Source: Desulfocapsa sp. (lineage in GTDB: Bacteria; Desulfobacterota; Desulfobulbia; Desulfobulbales; Desulfocapsaceae). From it: 64,000 bases of DNA. The position numbers and the translations under genes were made by a program. Numbering within the stretch: position 1 is the stretch's first letter; each line of letters begins with the position of its first letter. The stretch is taken from the NCBI GenBank assembly GCA_024763035.1, contig JANTGG010000003.1, positions 20,574 through 84,573 on the forward strand, written 5' to 3'. The notes under the pieces were generated by a model. That model made no database searches. It saw nothing but the letters and a program-made list of their open reading frames with translations, and was not told where the DNA came from. This document shows positions 52,715 through 60,447 of the stretch, piece by piece.

Positions 52715-53197
52715 TAATAAATTTGCTGTTACAACTGGCACAGATATTACGATCCTGCTACCGGGCGGTATATCTCCGCTGATCCTATTGGGCTGGATGG
52801 GGGGATTAATCTGTACGCTTATGTCACAAATGATCCGGTTAATTTGGTTGATCCGTGGGGGTTAATCTCCTGCAACGATACTCGCTACAATGGGATTAGT
52901 GACTGTATAGATCAATATAGACGTGACCTAGAGGTATGCAAGTGTAGTAATGAAAACGAACAAGTTTGTAAATTGAAGGCTAAATTAAGATACGAAGATT
53001 GTTTAGACAATGCTTATGGTCGGTGTAATGAAGATCTGAACGGAGATGGTAAAGTTGATAAGTATGATAAGATGTTATGGCTTTTTATGAGAGGATTATA
53101 TAATTTAACAACACCTCCAGGAACTTCTACTCCCCCAGGATATGGGAGTGATGGGCCAGGCTCCATTGATAATGTTCCCGTACCACCTCAAACGTAA
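52715..53197 (+). CDS. displaced RHS C-terminal tip (toxin-like) #1
   Basis: In-frame [44 protein letters not shown] core end followed by a unique Cys-rich tail with [12 protein letters not shown]; stop codon closely upstream; no upstream RHS repeats. Start codon uncertain. Confidence 0.75.
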
Positions 53198-53453: not shown

Positions 53454-53530
53454 TCCAATTGAATTGAAGAGGTAACATGGAAAAAGAAAAGAATGGGGGA
53501 CAGACCCCGATTGATTTAGGTCGTCGCTTC

Positions 53531-53885
53531 CTCTCGTCCTCCGCTTGCGGCAAACCAAGGGCAACCCTCCGGTTTACCAACCAATTTCCCACGCAGCCAA
53601 GCTAAATGTCGCATAATGCCTATCGATTATGTTTGGTGGCCGTTGAAGCAGCACAGCAAATAAATACACTCCCCAAACACCCTACCAGCAAAACCCTGTA
53701 ACTTGCCTAAGCCACTAAATATAAACGACATTATGCGGTGGACTATTTGTCACTCTGTTTGCGGCTTTTTGCAAACAGAGTGACAGACAGGGAACAGAAC
53801 ATTGCGCCCCGGAGTAACCACCCAACTGCGAACGTACGGGCGGGTGGGCGTTCATAAGCGGTGTAGTGGAAGTCCTGGCTGGCAA
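53531..53885. repeat. long structured repeat, copy R1
   Basis: Shares collinear blocks with R3 and R4: CCGC..GCGGCAAA..AAGGGCAACC, CGCATAATGCC...TTATGTTTGGTGG, GACATTATGCGG, GTTTGCGGCTTTTTGCAAAC..., GGAACAGAACATTGCGCC..GAGTAACCACCCAAC. Confidence 0.85.
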
Positions 53886-53984: not shown

Positions 53985-54013
53985 AATCAATCGGGGACAG
54001 ACCCCGATTGATT
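53985..54013. repeat. REP-like hairpin (GGGGACAGACCCC)
   Basis: AATCAATCGGGG-acaga-CCCCGATTGATT, 12-bp perfect stem; related motifs at 53495-53508, 53893-53905, 56862-56873. Confidence 0.75.
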
Positions 54014-54040
54014 TGCAAACAGCTCTTTAGGGGGAGAAGG

Positions 54041-54553
54041 CGCATCATAATATCTTGGCACAGATACTATGATTCTAGCACGGGGAGGTACATGACTCCT
54101 GACCCGATTGGGTTGGGTGGGGGGATTAATCTATATGCTTATGTGGGTGGGAATCCGGTTAATTGGATTGACCCTTGGGGGCTTGATTACGATGGTGCTG
54201 TCTATGATGCTTTTCGTGCACTTAATACAGGTGCGAAAGGTCCATCACCAGAAAGGATGGCTGAACTTAGAGCACGTTATGAGGAAGGAAGAAAAAGGCA
54301 GGATCAATATAATGAACAACTCCAGGAAGAATCTGCATGTGTGATTGAATGTATGGGGCCAAGTCTTAGAGATGCTGCAACAGCAGATTTGATACAAAGA
54401 ATGACGTTTAAAGCTATTGCTTCATTGGCTGGGCCGGAAGTTGCAGTGCCTTTGGCGTGGACAGAAGTTGCACTCCTAACCAAGGATGTTCAAGATTTGT
54501 CGGAAAAGTTAAAAAAATGCATTGAGGATTGCCTCTGTGAAGAACAACAGTAA
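54041..54553 (+). CDS. displaced RHS C-terminal tip (toxin-like) #2
   Basis: [45 protein letters not shown] followed by a unique ~130-aa tail; no upstream RHS repeats; start uncertain (ORF track 54008). Confidence 0.75.
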   Translation, partial: RIIISWHRYYDSSTGRYMTPDPIGLGGGINLYAYVGGNPVNWIDPWGLDYDGAVYDAFRALNTGAKGPSPERMAELRARYEEGRKRQDQYNEQLQEESACVIECMGPSLRDAATADLIQRMTFKAIASLAGPEVAVPLAWTEVALLTKDVQDLSEKLKKCIEDCLCEEQQ

Positions 54554-54892: not shown

Positions 54893-55003
54893 CCGGGCTC
54901 CCTCTCTGTCCACCGCTCCAGCGGCAAACTAAGGGCAAGGCTACGATTTACCGACCAGTTTCCCACGCATCCAAGCGCAATGTTATGTTTGGTGGCCGTG
55001 GGA
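54893..55003. repeat. long structured repeat, truncated copy R2
   Basis: CCGCTCCAGCGGCAAACTAAGGGCAA...CCAAGCGCAATGTTATGTTTGGTGGCCG; lacks the CGCATAATGCCTTCAG segment of R3. Confidence 0.7.
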
Positions 55004-55236
55004 CGAAGAATAAAACAACACACAAGCCCGTCTCAGATATGACCCCAAAATATAATCATATCTCTCCGGTGCATATTGATATTGAATAATCCCCAAGTTG
55101 AGGAACCGGTAAGAAACCAACGCAACATATCGGCCTCACCATCCAAGATTGCAAAAGTCCGAGTAGCGACCGTCGTGAGAGAGATAGGGGACGCTCATAA
55201 GATTATAAGTTTATCTGCAGTATGGGCTTCTTTTTG

Positions 55237-55790
55237 TCTTCCGCTCCAGCGGCAAACTAAGGGCAACCCTTCGGTTTAGCTGCCAATTACCCACGTAGCC
55301 AAGCGCAATGTCGCATAATGCCTTCAGTTATGTTTGGTGGTCCACCTTGCAGCACAGCACTAAATAAAACCACCCAACTCCCCAGCAGCAACACCCATAA
55401 CCCACCAAAGCCACTAAACATAATTGATATTATGCGGTAGACTGGCTGGCGCTTTGTTTGCGGCTTTTTGCAAACAGAGTGACAGACAGGGAACAGAACA
55501 TTGCGCCCCAGAGTAACCACCCAACAGCGAACGTACGGGCGGGTGGGCGTTCTAAGCGGTGTAGTGGAAGGCCTGGCTGGTAATGCGGTGGGTGGGTGGT
55601 GGAGCATTGTCAGGCAGGGCTGTAACGAAACCGCTTCCCTTGCGCAGTCCGGGCAGTTTCGGTCTGCGCCAAATATCCAAACCAACTTCAATCTATCTCA
55701 GAACCCGGACAAGGCAGCGGTCCGACAAAGCACTCGAAAACTAAGAGTCACAACCCAGTCCCTGGCGGACCGCTGCCGTAAGGAAAGGTT
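55237..55790. repeat. long structured repeat, copy R3 (most complete)
   Basis: Contains all blocks seen in R1 plus the distal GGCAGCGGTCCG...CGGACCGCTGCC stem shared with R4. Confidence 0.85.
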
Positions 55791-55832: not shown

Positions 55833-56303
55833 TTATTTCAGAGATGCTTTACGTTCCATCTCCTCAACAAACGCCTTGGCATCAACGATCTGAATCCCAT
55901 GAAAATGTTTTAAGGAAAGAAGGTGGTTGTCACCTGAGACCACGTAGTATGCTTTGGCTTCCAAAGCACAGCCAAGAAATTTATTGTCATCAGGATCATC
56001 TGTAATCCGATCTGTCTTATAACGATCCTTTGTCACGACAAAAGCTTTCTCTCGGATCAGTTCTATAATTCCATCAACCTCTTTCGGCTTGAGGTGAAGT
56101 TGTTTGTGGATATGGGGCTTCTGGAGAGTCTCTTCTATCTCCTGCAGGATCTCTCCGGAGACTGCCAGGTCAAACGCACCGGAAAGCCAGAGGTGCTGTA
56201 ATGTTGCAACAGAACCATATGACGAGAAAAGGCCACTTACAAACAGGTTGGTATCAAGGACTGCTCTAATGCGTTGTTTTTTGATCACTTCGTACTTCCT
56301 CAA
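55833..56303 (-). CDS. PIN-domain putative toxin (COG1569-like)
   Basis: IRAVLDTNLFVSGLFS...AVSGEILQEIEETL...ITDDPDDNKFLGCALEAKAYYVVSGDNHLLSLKHFHGIQIVDAKAFVE. Confidence 0.88.
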   Translation of the reverse strand: MRKYEVIKKQRIRAVLDTNLFVSGLFSSYGSVATLQHLWLSGAFDLAVSGEILQEIEETLQKPHIHKQLHLKPKEVDGIIELIREKAFVVTKDRYKTDRITDDPDDNKFLGCALEAKAYYVVSGDNHLLSLKHFHGIQIVDAKAFVEEMERKASLK

Positions 56304-56772
56304 CAGCCTTGTCCACTATCTGCAGTATTTCATCTTCGGAATAGTCTTTGTTTTTTGAACGAAGGCGGTCAAGGGTGCTCTGCATCCGTGATTCCCACGA
56401 ATCCTTATCCTGTTGTGGTTTAATTATGCTTTCAACCTTGCTTTTTATAAGTAGAGCATCGATCATATTTTTAATCATCTCTCTGTCTTCAGGTGGCATC
56501 TTCTCAACTTCTTTGAATTTCTCAAAAAGTACCAGGTCTTTAAGGGTGCTGATTCCATCTTTGGGAGCATTATCAAAAATCAGATAATCCGAGCTGATTT
56601 GCAAGGCATCTGCGATTTTCCGTAATGTATCAGCAGATGGTACAATTCTTTCATTTTCATATTTGCTCAATAATTTACAATTTACTCCTGATAGTGCCTC
56701 AAGGGCAGCTTGGGATAATCCTTTTTCAGTTCTCAGTTTCTTTATTTTTGTTCCAAGTGTCATGTGTACCAC
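56266..56772 (-). CDS. XRE-family HTH protein, candidate antitoxin/regulator of the PIN gene
   Basis: LGTKIKKLRTEKGLSQAALEALSGVNCKLLSKYENERIVPSADTLRKIADALQISSDYLIF; overlaps the PIN ORF start. Confidence 0.85.
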   Translation of the reverse strand: MVHMTLGTKIKKLRTEKGLSQAALEALSGVNCKLLSKYENERIVPSADTLRKIADALQISSDYLIFDNAPKDGISTLKDLVLFEKFKEVEKMPPEDREMIKNMIDALLIKSKVESIIKPQQDKDSWESRMQSTLDRLRSKNKDYSEDEILQIVDKAVEEVRSDQKTTH

Positions 56773-57070: not shown

Positions 57071-57078
57071 AATAAAAG

Positions 57079-57125
57079 GTGGCCGTTGAAGCAGCACAAC
57101 AAATAAACCCACTCCCCAAACACCC
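57079..57125. repeat. long structured repeat, copy R4 left part (split by IS)
   Basis: GGTGGCCGTTGAAGCAGCACAACAAATAAACCCACTCCCCAAACACCC matches R1 53636-53684. Confidence 0.85.
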
Positions 57126-58768
57126 CATAGCCGTCAGGCTAAGACCTAATTCCCAATGGGGACAACCTCTCCAGCGCTACTCACGGTGAATGCTCCGAAG
57201 AGAATTTCAGGAGAGTAGTTCCCTGATTTATTTTTTTCCAGCAGGTGTTTCCTGCGACTCAACAGCAAGAACTCCGCCAGATATCTTTCAGTTGAAACCG
57301 TACCGCCGGTGATCATTTTCCTCAACCTGTCGATGTAGAAGACTATTGTTTTCATAGCCTTGTAAAAACTCAGGTTTTTTCCGTACAATTGTCTCAACAT
57401 CTTGCTGACGAACCACAGGATGCGCCAGCTTGTTACAATGATGAAGAGTTTAGCCCAGATATAACATTCCAGGCGTTCCTGTTTTACTTTTTTGACCTTG
57501 TCTATTTTCCAAATGGATTTCCACACCTTGAATGTCAGTTCAATCTGCCATCGGAGAGTATACACTTTCCAGGCGGTATCAATTGTAATTGCATCCTCAG
57601 AAGCGGAGGTGATAAACAGGGTCAGTTGAGCACGGGCCTTTGATCCATCACTTAACTGTCGTCCCTGATTTTTCGCATTTTTGTTCAGTTTGCGCATCCG
57701 CTCCTGGTATACAGACTCGGGCAACAGGTAGATAAATAAGCGTACCTGAAGGTCAAGATTCGCTCCAAGGAATACAGATTCTTCAATTCTCTGGACATCG
57801 AACTTTCGCATATTCATGGCTATTTCTGCAAAATCCAGCTCGATTATCTTATCACCCTGCTGCTGGTACACTTTTCTATTTGGGTGCAACCTGGCCAAAA
57901 AATGACCAAGTTGTTCAAGAATCCCATTTAATGCATCCAAGTGCATATATGCAAGATCCCGGACAACGAGATCGCCGTCGCCAACCACCTCAAGCGTCAG
58001 CATAGAATTCACGGCGTCCTGATCGTTGAAGGCATTCAGGCTGAGATCAACCACTTTCCCGGACAGAAGATCGTACTCAAGCTGAATTCTGACATTTGCC
58101 CTGGAACCACTGCCGCCACTTCCGGGAAAAACATCGGCCATGGACTCATCAACCTGGAAGCAGACAGAATCCTTTATCAGGATTCTGTCGAATTCCTTGC
58201 ATTGAATCAGTGACTCCGTCTCTGACAACTGCTTATGCAGCAATTCCCCAAGGGAGGCTTTCAAGAATGTAACAGCATATTTATTGAACCGCTCATCCAA
58301 TGCCTGCTTTGTGATTTCAATGTCATGGTCCAATTCAAGCTTGGTCGTAAGGTCGTTGAGGCTTTCGTAGGCCAGGCTGTCGGAATTGAATACGACAAGC
58401 GAAAGAAACGTAAATCCATCCAACCTGCTCTCTCGCTGGACAAATTTTGATTGGCGCGCTAACAGCTCAATTTCTTCCTGAGTGAAATGATTTTCGAACT
58501 GTCCTTCCAATGACTTTTCAAGCTGCTGGATTTCTAGCTTTTTTAATCTCCTAATGGTTGTAATTGCTTGAAATATAGGTTTTTTCAGGCTAATATGTAA
58601 GACATAAATCAATCACCACTACAAACACGATGGGGGCGTGTAACACCCCCATCAAAAAAAGGTGCCATTATGAGGCTGGGGAGCGAGAGAGATAAGCAGC
58701 TCAGGTTTTGTCGCTCCCGGTGTTTGCACATGATTACAGCATGTTAACCTCTTAGCCTGACGGCTATG
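57126..58768 (-). mobile_element. IS4-family insertion sequence, 1643 bp
   Basis: Perfect 19-bp IRs CATAGCCGTCAGGCTAAGA / TCTTAGCCTGACGGCTATG; 10-bp direct repeats CCAAACACCC at 57116-57125 and 58769-58778; single intact transposase ORF. Confidence 0.95.
57146..58612 (-). CDS. IS4-family DDE transposase
   Basis: IKDSVCFQVDESMADVFPGSGGSG, VVRDLAYMHLDALN, YTLRWQIELTFKVWKS (YREK-type motif). Confidence 0.95.
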   Translation of the reverse strand: MIYVLHISLKKPIFQAITTIRRLKKLEIQQLEKSLEGQFENHFTQEEIELLARQSKFVQRESRLDGFTFLSLVVFNSDSLAYESLNDLTTKLELDHDIEITKQALDERFNKYAVTFLKASLGELLHKQLSETESLIQCKEFDRILIKDSVCFQVDESMADVFPGSGGSGSRANVRIQLEYDLLSGKVVDLSLNAFNDQDAVNSMLTLEVVGDGDLVVRDLAYMHLDALNGILEQLGHFLARLHPNRKVYQQQGDKIIELDFAEIAMNMRKFDVQRIEESVFLGANLDLQVRLFIYLLPESVYQERMRKLNKNAKNQGRQLSDGSKARAQLTLFITSASEDAITIDTAWKVYTLRWQIELTFKVWKSIWKIDKVKKVKQERLECYIWAKLFIIVTSWRILWFVSKMLRQLYGKNLSFYKAMKTIVFYIDRLRKMITGGTVSTERYLAEFLLLSRRKHLLEKNKSGNYSPEILFGAFTVSSAGEVVPIGN

Positions 58769-59174
58769 CCAAACACCCCACCATAAAAATCCTGTAACTT
58801 ACCGAATCCAATAAATATAAACAACATTATGCGGTGGACTGTCTGGCGCTTTGTTTGCGGCTTTTTGCAAACAAAGTGACGGACAGGGAACAGAACATTG
58901 CGCCCCAGAGTAACCACCCAACTTCGAGCGTACGAGTGGGCACTCTAAGCGGTGTAGTGGAAGTCCTGGCTGGTAATGCGGTGGGCGGATGGTGGAGCAT
59001 TGTCAGGCAGGGCTGTAACGAACTTCCCTTACGCAGTCCGGGCTTTTTCGGTCTGCGCCAAACCTCCAAACCAGCTACAATCCACCCCTGAACCCGGACA
59101 CGGCAGCGGTCCGACGAAGCACCCGGCACTCAGAACCACAACCCAAGCCCAGGCGGACCGCTGCCGTGAGGAAA
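58769..59174. repeat. long structured repeat, copy R4 right part
   Basis: Continues from the TSD: CCAAACACCCCACC..CCTGTAACTTACCGAATCCAATAAATATAAACAACATTATGCGG... through GGCAGCGGTCCG..CGGACCGCTGCC. Confidence 0.85.
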
Positions 59175-59197
59175 GACCATGATCCAGCTGGAATTGT

Positions 59198-59587
59198 CTA
59201 AGTTAAAGTAGTAACAAACGAAGAAGCACAAATATCAGGGTCATTTGTGATAATTTGCATGTCAAAATGTCTTGCCGTGGCAGCAATCAAACGATCATGA
59301 AGTTCCGGAATGTCCATGATCTCAGATGCAGCTTTGAGAATTTCTAAACTGAGTGGTTCAAATTGATAGTTATCACTCTGCATGAGATCTTCAATATGAA
59401 GTAGCCCTACAGGGATTCTATTTTTTTCAAAAAGATACAAAACTTCCATCAAGACAATCGCCGGAATAATGATGGTTGCCTTCCCTTTGTCAGCTGCCTG
59501 AAATGCTTTATGTCTTTTATCGTTGATAACTTTCTTACCCATCATGAATTTGACAAGGGCTTGGGTATCTGTCACGAAATTACTCAT
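59198..59587 (-). CDS. VapC-like PIN-domain toxin
   Basis: MSNFVTDTQALVKFMMGKK...IIPAIVLMEVLYLFEK...IPELHDRLIAATARHFDMQIITNDPDICA. Start at internal ATG. Confidence 0.88.
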   Translation of the reverse strand: MSNFVTDTQALVKFMMGKKVINDKRHKAFQAADKGKATIIIPAIVLMEVLYLFEKNRIPVGLLHIEDLMQSDNYQFEPLSLEILKAASEIMDIPELHDRLIAATARHFDMQIITNDPDICASSFVTTLT

Positions 59588-59822
59588 TCTCAAACTTTCT
59601 TTCGAAGTGTTTCCATGAATCACTTCGAAGTTTCTTCACATCAGACAAGTCAAAAGGATAATCTGCCAGTATTCCCTGTAGTTGTATATTTACCCTCTTT
59701 GTAGATTGCTGTTTTTTATGGTGCACAAAATCAATAAAGTCAGACACAGAGTGTAACTCAGCCCCTGAAAGTCTGATTAATTTAGAGTAAATCCCATGCT
59801 TGATTAAGGCTGCTTCATTCAT
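59580..59822 (-). CDS. putative antitoxin partner of the VapC-like gene
   Basis: 80-aa ORF immediately upstream and overlapping the PIN ORF start by 8 bp. Confidence 0.65.
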   Translation of the reverse strand: MNEAALIKHGIYSKLIRLSGAELHSVSDFIDFVHHKKQQSTKRVNIQLQGILADYPFDLSDVKKLRSDSWKHFERKFENE

Positions 59823-59835
59823 AGAAAAGTCTCCT

Positions 59836-60210
59836 TTATGCAGAAATAGTATGTGTTCCCGGTGTGGTAGCCAGACGTTTAAATTGATTTTTTAGAATAA
59901 AAGCGTCTATAATCTCCTTTATAGTTCCCCTATCATGCTCTGGAAGTCGATCTATTTCTTCAAGCCGTTGTAACAGTTCTCGGTCTCCAATTTTTACTGC
60001 GGGCAAATCATCACGCTCATCTAACACAAGATAATCCATAGAAATATTAAATAGTCTTGCTATCTTTGCAACAACGTCTGTTTTAGGTTCATGGAGATTG
60101 CGCTCATAGCCTGAAATTTGTTTTTGATGAATTTTTAATTGGTTGGCTAACTGAGCTTGCGACCACCCACGTTCCTGCCGAAGTTGTTTTATCTTATCTC
60201 CAATGGACAT
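59836..60210 (-). CDS. XRE-family HTH regulator
   Basis: MSIGDKIKQLRQERGWSQAQLANQLKIHQKQISGYERNLHEPKTDVVAKIARLFNISMDYLVL; start at internal ATG 60210. Confidence 0.88.
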   Translation of the reverse strand: MSIGDKIKQLRQERGWSQAQLANQLKIHQKQISGYERNLHEPKTDVVAKIARLFNISMDYLVLDERDDLPAVKIGDRELLQRLEEIDRLPEHDRGTIKEIIDAFILKNQFKRLATTPGTHTISA

Positions 60211-60447
60211 AACCATAGCTCCCTTCAATTTGTCAAAGTAATCATATTTGTACTCAATATCTATATAATTATCTTGATACATGCTCAGGTCAAGTCTTTT
60301 GTGTTGACAGTGTAGTTATTCGTTGTATTTTATGGAGTACGTTTAGTCCCATTATTTTTCTCGGCAAAATTAGTCAGTCAACAGGCTTCAAACCTCGGAA
60401 TCACTCGCAGGGGCAGGATATACAGGTATGTTTTTAAGAATACGGTG

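Follow-up and report, generated by a model that had tools for sequence, protein, structure and literature searches.

A repeat of about 560 bp, here called R, was found to carry two arms that are inverted mimics of the host dif site and that pair with each other, with covariation among genomes. In many genomes R marks modules of toxin-antitoxin (TA) genes and orphan Rhs tips. Genes for a pair of Xer-like recombinases stand immediately ahead of orphan Rhs tips, with an R hairpin in between at some loci. We lean towards the reading that R, as a forked hairpin of single-stranded DNA, rebuilds the host dif site from one strand, and that cassettes are joined R to R by Xer-type exchange.

In the window, by which we mean the whole 64,000-nt stretch of Desulfocapsa sp. 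DNA that was analysed, copies R1, R2, R3 and R4 lie within 53.5-59.2 kb, and a fifth, partial copy is found elsewhere in the host genome; across genomes, many copies are decayed. An earlier sequence-only reading had described inverted motif pairs in R1 and R3 and a right site in R4. Re-reading of the sequence located both pairs with an offset of 1-2 nt, each of the form CGCATAA-N-TTATGTTT..GTGG with a spacing of ~75-80 nt, and the R4 site as the sole arm left in that copy. The copies and their parts are as follows.

53528..53885, + strand: R1, comprising the left and middle of the ~560-bp repeat (repeat families, BLAST)
53606..53637, + strand: R1 left arm (dif weight matrix, 32.5 bits), with XerC box 53606-53616, 10-nt centre and XerD box 53627-53637; sequence ATGTCGCATAA-tgcctatcga-TTATGTTTGGT
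53711..53737, + strand: R1 right arm, inverted (sequence, covariance model); on the - strand CGCATAA-TGTCGT-TTATATTTAGT
53743..53790, + strand: R1 hairpin B of the fork (inverted repeat, fold)
54897..55010, + strand: R2, decayed, without XerC box and right half (repeat comparison, sequence)
55225..55790, + strand: R3, full-length element (repeat families, fold)
55303..55311, + strand: R3 helix P1, left strand GCGCAATGT (fold)
55308..55338, + strand: R3 left arm (dif weight matrix, 32.5 bits), with XerC box 55308-55318, 9-nt centre and XerD box 55328-55338; sequence ATGTCGCATAA-tgccttcag-TTATGTTTGGT
55410..55436, + strand: R3 right arm, inverted (dif weight matrix, 21.5 bits); on the - strand CGCATAA-TATCAA-TTATGTTTAGT
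55442..55489, + strand: R3 hairpin B (fold)
55498..55506, + strand: R3 helix P1, right strand ACATTGCGC (fold)
57078..57125, + strand: R4 left remnant (BLAST, repeat comparison)
57126-58767: IS4-type element (DDE_Tnp_1) splitting R4, with ends TAGCCGTCAGGCTAAG / CTTAGCCTGACGGCTA
58769..59177, + strand: R4 right part, including the right arm at 58807-58836 (BLAST, repeat comparison)

The IS4-type insertion, also delimited as 57146-58612, severs the left remnant of R4 from its right part. The sequence CCAAACACCCC stands on both sides of the IS4-type element and resembles an 11-bp target duplication. Palindromic GGGGACAGACCCC repeats of REP-like appearance surround R copies (window positions 53494, 53889, 53991 and 56861, and locus L050) and truncate R4 on its left side.

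The resemblance to Xer core sites suspected from the motifs extends to the genome's own dif, aacgTCGCATAATGTATATTATGTTTAGTtttt, which lies next to recJ (named by reading of the protein); the dif of relatives is AATGTCGCATAATGTATATTATGTWTAGT-like and usually occurs in one copy per genome. The full XerC box ATGTCGCATAA and the XerD half TTATGTTTAGT of the R arms match the host dif, and the left arms combine ATGTCGCATAA with the XerD box TTATGTTTGGT. A weight matrix derived from the chromosomal dif of relatives (22 distinct sites, R left out) had three matches of at least 17 bits in the window, all of them R arms (32.5, 32.5 and 21.5); over 60 Markov copies of the window such matches numbered 7 in total (maximum 21.5), and there were none in the reversed window. 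Over 632 kb, the R arms rank top together with dif, and the R3 right arm is one of two sites in the genome with at most 3 mismatches from an E. coli-type dif pattern. The pattern ATGTCGCATAA-N4-12-TTATGT occurs three times in the 3.3-Mb host genome, every time within an R copy, and what it marks among the matches listed for 251 genomes is mainly dif, once per genome, along with R-type sites and a small number of others; the reversed pattern had no match in the host genome or in the 251 genomes. For the extra ATGTCGCATAA sites of six genomes (G086, G184, G187, G189, G182 and G138), an R-type inverted partner was not found. In genomes of family f12 (L167, L169, L170, L177), extra dif-like ATGTCGCATAA-N6/7-TTATGT sites stand beside short terminator-like hairpins, likewise without an R-type partner.

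In folds, the left and right arms pair as one hairpin, A, on which a helix P1 (GCAATGT/ACATTGC) is stacked, and a second hairpin, B, branches from the right strand. The outer four bases of the XerC box come from P1, so the left strand of hairpin A and P1 is a complete, continuous dif strand, ATGTCGCATAA-N7-11-TTATGTTTRGT, the complement of which lies partly in the right arm and partly on the far side of P1. In one genome (G088) the stem runs on without a break and has no hairpin B, and in R1 of the window P1 has decayed to AATGT/ACATT. The centre measures 7-11 nt on the left and 5-7 nt on the right in nearly all copies; copies with a short loop (families f5 and f6) fold as ssDNA with z of about -6 and one extrahelical base. 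R centres begin with TGCC or GGCC, and dif centres with TGT or TAT.

A covariance model was built from 11 R copies. Of the cells in the alignment of 31 copies, which was fitted to this model and hence leans towards pairing, 93.6% pair; 10 pairs and 49 cells have changed on both sides, a compensatory level that was reached by none of 500 shuffles, and all slid controls were far lower. CGCATAA/TTATGCG and TTATG/CATAA are near-invariant, and covariation is seen in the distal stem and in the pairs immediately internal to the XerC box. Because the stem sequence is fixed exactly at the Xer positions, we infer that Xer-type recombinases probably recognise the R stem as a double strand, beyond an RNA role alone.

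In the window, R belongs to an island between rdgB and an AI-2E-type gene (50.5-60.9 kb), which is missing from the same gene neighbourhood in two congeners (G008 and G004); in a third comparison (G003) the contig passes into other genes and then ends. For a short element after tRNA-Pro in G257, the relatives are too divergent to delimit an empty site. The island carries the following coding features.

52736..53197, + strand: orphan Rhs C-terminal tip 1 (Rhs end motif, 11 residues, in reading frame)
54008..54553, + strand: orphan Rhs C-terminal tip 2, with the conserved element AGCTCTTTAGGGGGAGAAGG ahead of it
55833..56772, - strand: TA pair of a PIN_3 protein (55833-56303) and an HTH protein (56266-56772), 3' end facing R3 (Pfam)
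59198..60282, - strand: TA genes PIN (59198-59623), DUF2281-like (59580-59822) and HTH (59836-60282), 3' end facing R4 (Pfam)

The same arrangement recurs in other genomes. The right neighbour of R copies lies almost always on the - strand with its 3' end towards R and is a TA gene in about half of the copies (PIN, ParE, YoeB, HicA, DUF4160), these counts having been made by eye from ORF tables and the scanned proteins having been picked for a toxin-like look. Contig 445 of G133 holds a TA-R-TA-R-TA array in which the toxin stop codons are at most ~30 bp from the R end, and G089 has a pair similar to it. About a dozen copies have orphan Rhs tips on their left, in + orientation, and in G195 a full Rhs protein of 2,572 aa is followed by a small ORF resembling the DUF4279 gene of G167 and then by R. 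Some copies adjoin housekeeping genes (ComM, ThiD, DnaJ), R sits 3' of the genes on both its sides, and no phage genes were found beside R copies in the neighbourhoods examined. In G075 and G058 a common TA module is 91% identical, the adjoining R copies are 77% identical and the left neighbours differ, a pattern that suggests modular exchange. A Y1/RAYT-like transposase gene was recognised, by reading, in the R loop region of one locus (L174, G108:C18) and just left of R in another (L156:1122-1529, G133).

Orphan Rhs tips are familiar from polymorphic toxin arrays as arrayed, truncated Rhs C-termini with small downstream ORFs. The tips described here have the same truncated C-termini, small ORFs and arrays; unlike the known ones, they are accompanied by a conserved hairpin and an Xer-like recombinase pair. 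A common 5' element, AGCTCTTTRGGGGGAGAAGG, stands about 15-25 bp before orphan tips, both in the window (~54022-54042) and in four genomes with the recombinase pair (L193-L196, L198), and this element or the start of the tip is possibly a second recombination site. Rhs tips begin with PGQYYD or WHRYYD, two similar sequences.

It was an R match in another order (G388) that led to these recombinases; a search for Xer or IntI homologues near other copies had been suggested by the sequence-only reading. Of 251 genomes of the order, 10 have homologues of the pair; these include the R-bearing G003, G005 and G138 as well as congeners of further genomes that carry R. The Rhs tip motif follows 172-980 bp downstream on the same strand at 14 of the 16 loci with the pair; of the remaining two, one contig ends too soon and one has an R hairpin instead of the tip. 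R-type hairpins lie on contigs with the pair in G388, G256 (two) and G228, and in four cases the contig of a pair also carries an R-type hairpin or a fragment of R. In G388, two tandem Xer-like tyrosine recombinases are followed ~110 bp on by the R match and then by an Rhs tip. On contig 257 of G003, a stretch of 7.2 kb contains R and a PIN/HTH TA pair as well as the recombinase pair and an Rhs tip. The host genome itself lacks the dedicated pair, by the homologue search of 251 genomes; it encodes XerC and XerD, its best tyrosine recombinases, and IntI was not found in the host MAG, which is 92% complete (integrase_gron reached no more than 150 bits, the cut-off being 265). Three findings had been named beforehand as speaking against recombination sites, namely an unrelated genomic dif, invariable sites and no associated recombinase, and none was encountered: the dif is related to the R arms in sequence, the island is absent in two congeners and, in relatives, recombinases are associated.

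Near some of the Rhs-tip recombinases, short palindromes of two inverted XerC boxes were observed (L194, L196, L198 and L205:5682-5711); in three of these (L194, L196 and L205) an inverted XerD-like pair (CATAA..TTATG) comes next. Such a palindrome (ACGTCGCATAA...TTATGCGACGT) lies nearby in G197 and G228, and a near-identical one, with ACGTCGCACAA in one arm, occurs in G030, where the recombinase is present in nine copies and perhaps belongs to an active element.

With the covariance model, the R hairpin was detected in 28 of 258 genomes of the order, distributed over 17 genera, and in one genome (G388) outside the order among 395 of the phylum; in the order it sits for the most part in islands. 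Phage and plasmid collections gave no R match, and pattern searches in IMG/VR returned three phage contigs with single dif-like sites, the R-type inverted partner being absent in the stretches read. L106 (IMGVR_UViG_2508501000_000001) is an inovirus-like contig with the dif-like site CGCATAATTTGTATTATGTTAAGTGG and ORFs that are secretin-like, Zot-like and coat-like by reading. R together with an Rhs tip and a TA module was also seen on a contig labelled Sulfurovum (L056, CAMZLC010000084.1), by horizontal transfer or misbinning.

The architecture of R is that of the attP(+) of CTX phage, not that of the integron attC. In CTX, attP1 (12 nt centre) and attP2 (7 nt) are inverted, ~90 bp apart, and form a forked hairpin (PMC3089051). 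R similarly has two inverted dif-like sequences, ~75-90 nt apart in the two systems, that pair within one strand as a forked hairpin (PMC3089051; PMC4439123), with complete XerC and XerD boxes flanking an asymmetric centre that is longer on one strand (12/7 nt in CTX, 7-11/5-7 nt in R). Unlike attP(+), R is not carried by a phage or satellite integrating at dif and is scattered over chromosomal islands together with TA and Rhs modules; its centres match each other and not dif, so that the XerC-side pairing with host dif fails (TGCC/GGCC versus TGT/TAT), some of its stems have extrahelical bases, which the CTX stem lacks (PMC4792948), and the conserved element is longer. With integron cassettes R shares gene-hairpin arrays, the position of the hairpin at the 3' end of genes, the frequency of TA genes, an imperfect stem and the better folding of one strand (PMC4792948). 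It is set apart from attC by the dif boxes in its stem, its length of up to ~560 bp, the unconserved AAC/GTT core triplet (G-C 14, U-A 12, C-G 3) and a genome with XerC and XerD but no IntI found, which bears out the description of the sites as unlike canonical integrons. The ATT/AAT proposed in place of GTT/AAC holds for R1 and R3 but not for the family, where the pair varies (T-A, G-C, C-G). The pdif sites or dif modules of Acinetobacter are likewise Xer-type sites around accessory genes including TA modules (PMC6449649); they are, however, ordinary 28-bp double-strand sites flanking the module, whereas R consists of two inverted, imperfect sites in one hairpin at one module end. No 28-bp 11-6-11 dif-like site was found at both module ends, and only the R right arm has a 6-nt centre, without the outer XerC bases. 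A literature search, covering few subscription papers, yielded no description of such a system or of a hairpin or recombinase at Rhs tips.

In regard to the mechanism, the R strand would become single during replication or transfer and fold into the stem, which would be bound by the host XerC/XerD or by the dedicated recombinase pair. Exchange of one strand at the XerC end of the centre, by analogy with XerC on CTX attP(+) and IntI on attC, could then join a cassette (TA or Rhs tip) with its R to another R-type site, and replication would resolve the junction. Since R centres begin alike and differ from dif in their first bases, R by R would be the likelier exchange than R by dif under the pairing rule of CTX (PMC3089051). 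Thus, of the earlier proposal of Xer-type sites in a cassette-collecting system, the dif mimicry, the TA/Rhs context and the recombinase linkage are observed, and the recombination itself is what we infer; in the MAG contigs analysed, no recombination product, excised circle or strain-level change was seen. Homology breakpoints mostly coincide with the limits of the R element or with those of the variable loop, and do not map to the XerC cleavage point. Centres that do not match the TGT of dif, a genome without its own recombinase pair, decayed copies, housekeeping neighbours and a + strand that also folds well as RNA were likewise counted against shuffling.

This last property belongs to the reading of R as a large structured non-coding RNA, or a 3'-end or terminator element, from the + strand, its likeness to dif being incidental or inherited. 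The + strand folds beyond its own shuffles (z -2.55 for R3 and -3.1 for R1) and beyond the - strand (-0.23), wobble pairs favour it by 24 to 10, and the position 3' of genes on both sides would also fit. However, an RNA role leaves the most conserved positions, the paired XerC and XerD boxes, unexplained, Rfam gave no match to R at gathering or permissive thresholds, and terminator-like sites are not in excess, so we take this origin to be unlikely, if worth keeping in mind. It is quite unlikely that R is a transposon-like repeat of the non-autonomous kind, for instance mobilised by an HUH transposase (RAYT, for example) or borne with islands by homologous recombination, in which the mimicry of dif reflects a former or secondary function: the orientation towards neighbouring genes is fixed, terminal inverted repeats were not recognised in R, and covariation preserves the dif stem and not the ends, although the multiple copies, discrete ends, decayed fragments and the Y1-type genes recognised by reading within or close to R (G108, G133) could be expected of such an element.

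The shared CTX architecture could also mean that R is the remnant attP of filamentous phages or satellites integrating at dif, kept by chance. This seems highly improbable, as R has no match in the phage or plasmid collections and no adjoining phage genes, and its copies lie far from dif, with mismatching centres. Scarcely credible is a divergent attC in a cluster without integrase, for which the TA-rich gene-hairpin arrays, the imperfect stem and the extrahelical bases of some copies would speak; the conserved boxes belong to dif, and neither a conserved triplet nor, in the host genome, IntI was found. A look-alike of the canonical integron attC (TAACAAGGCGC...GCGGCGTTA), with an inner arm resembling R hairpin B, was seen at L012/L040 (G028:C116).

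Returning to the reading of R as a dif-rebuilding hairpin, a broader form of it can be put forward tentatively, namely that Desulfobulbales-type bacteria and at least one other order possess a chromosomal system analogous to integrons, in which Xer-like pairs and/or XerCD may shuffle TA and Rhs-tip cassettes through dif-mimicking ssDNA hairpins. The integration of CTX has been described as unique in its resemblance to cassette recombination, and as 'not a complete system' (PMC4792948); chromosomal cassette hairpins that mimic dif, some with extrahelical bases, together with Xer-like recombinases, would fill this gap between Xer and integrons. If true, such a system would stand beside integrons as a counterpart that is either independent of them or ancestral, and would be a mechanism devoted to the exchange of Rhs toxin tips, the diversification of which would thereby gain a specific explanation, testable by one plasmid assay.
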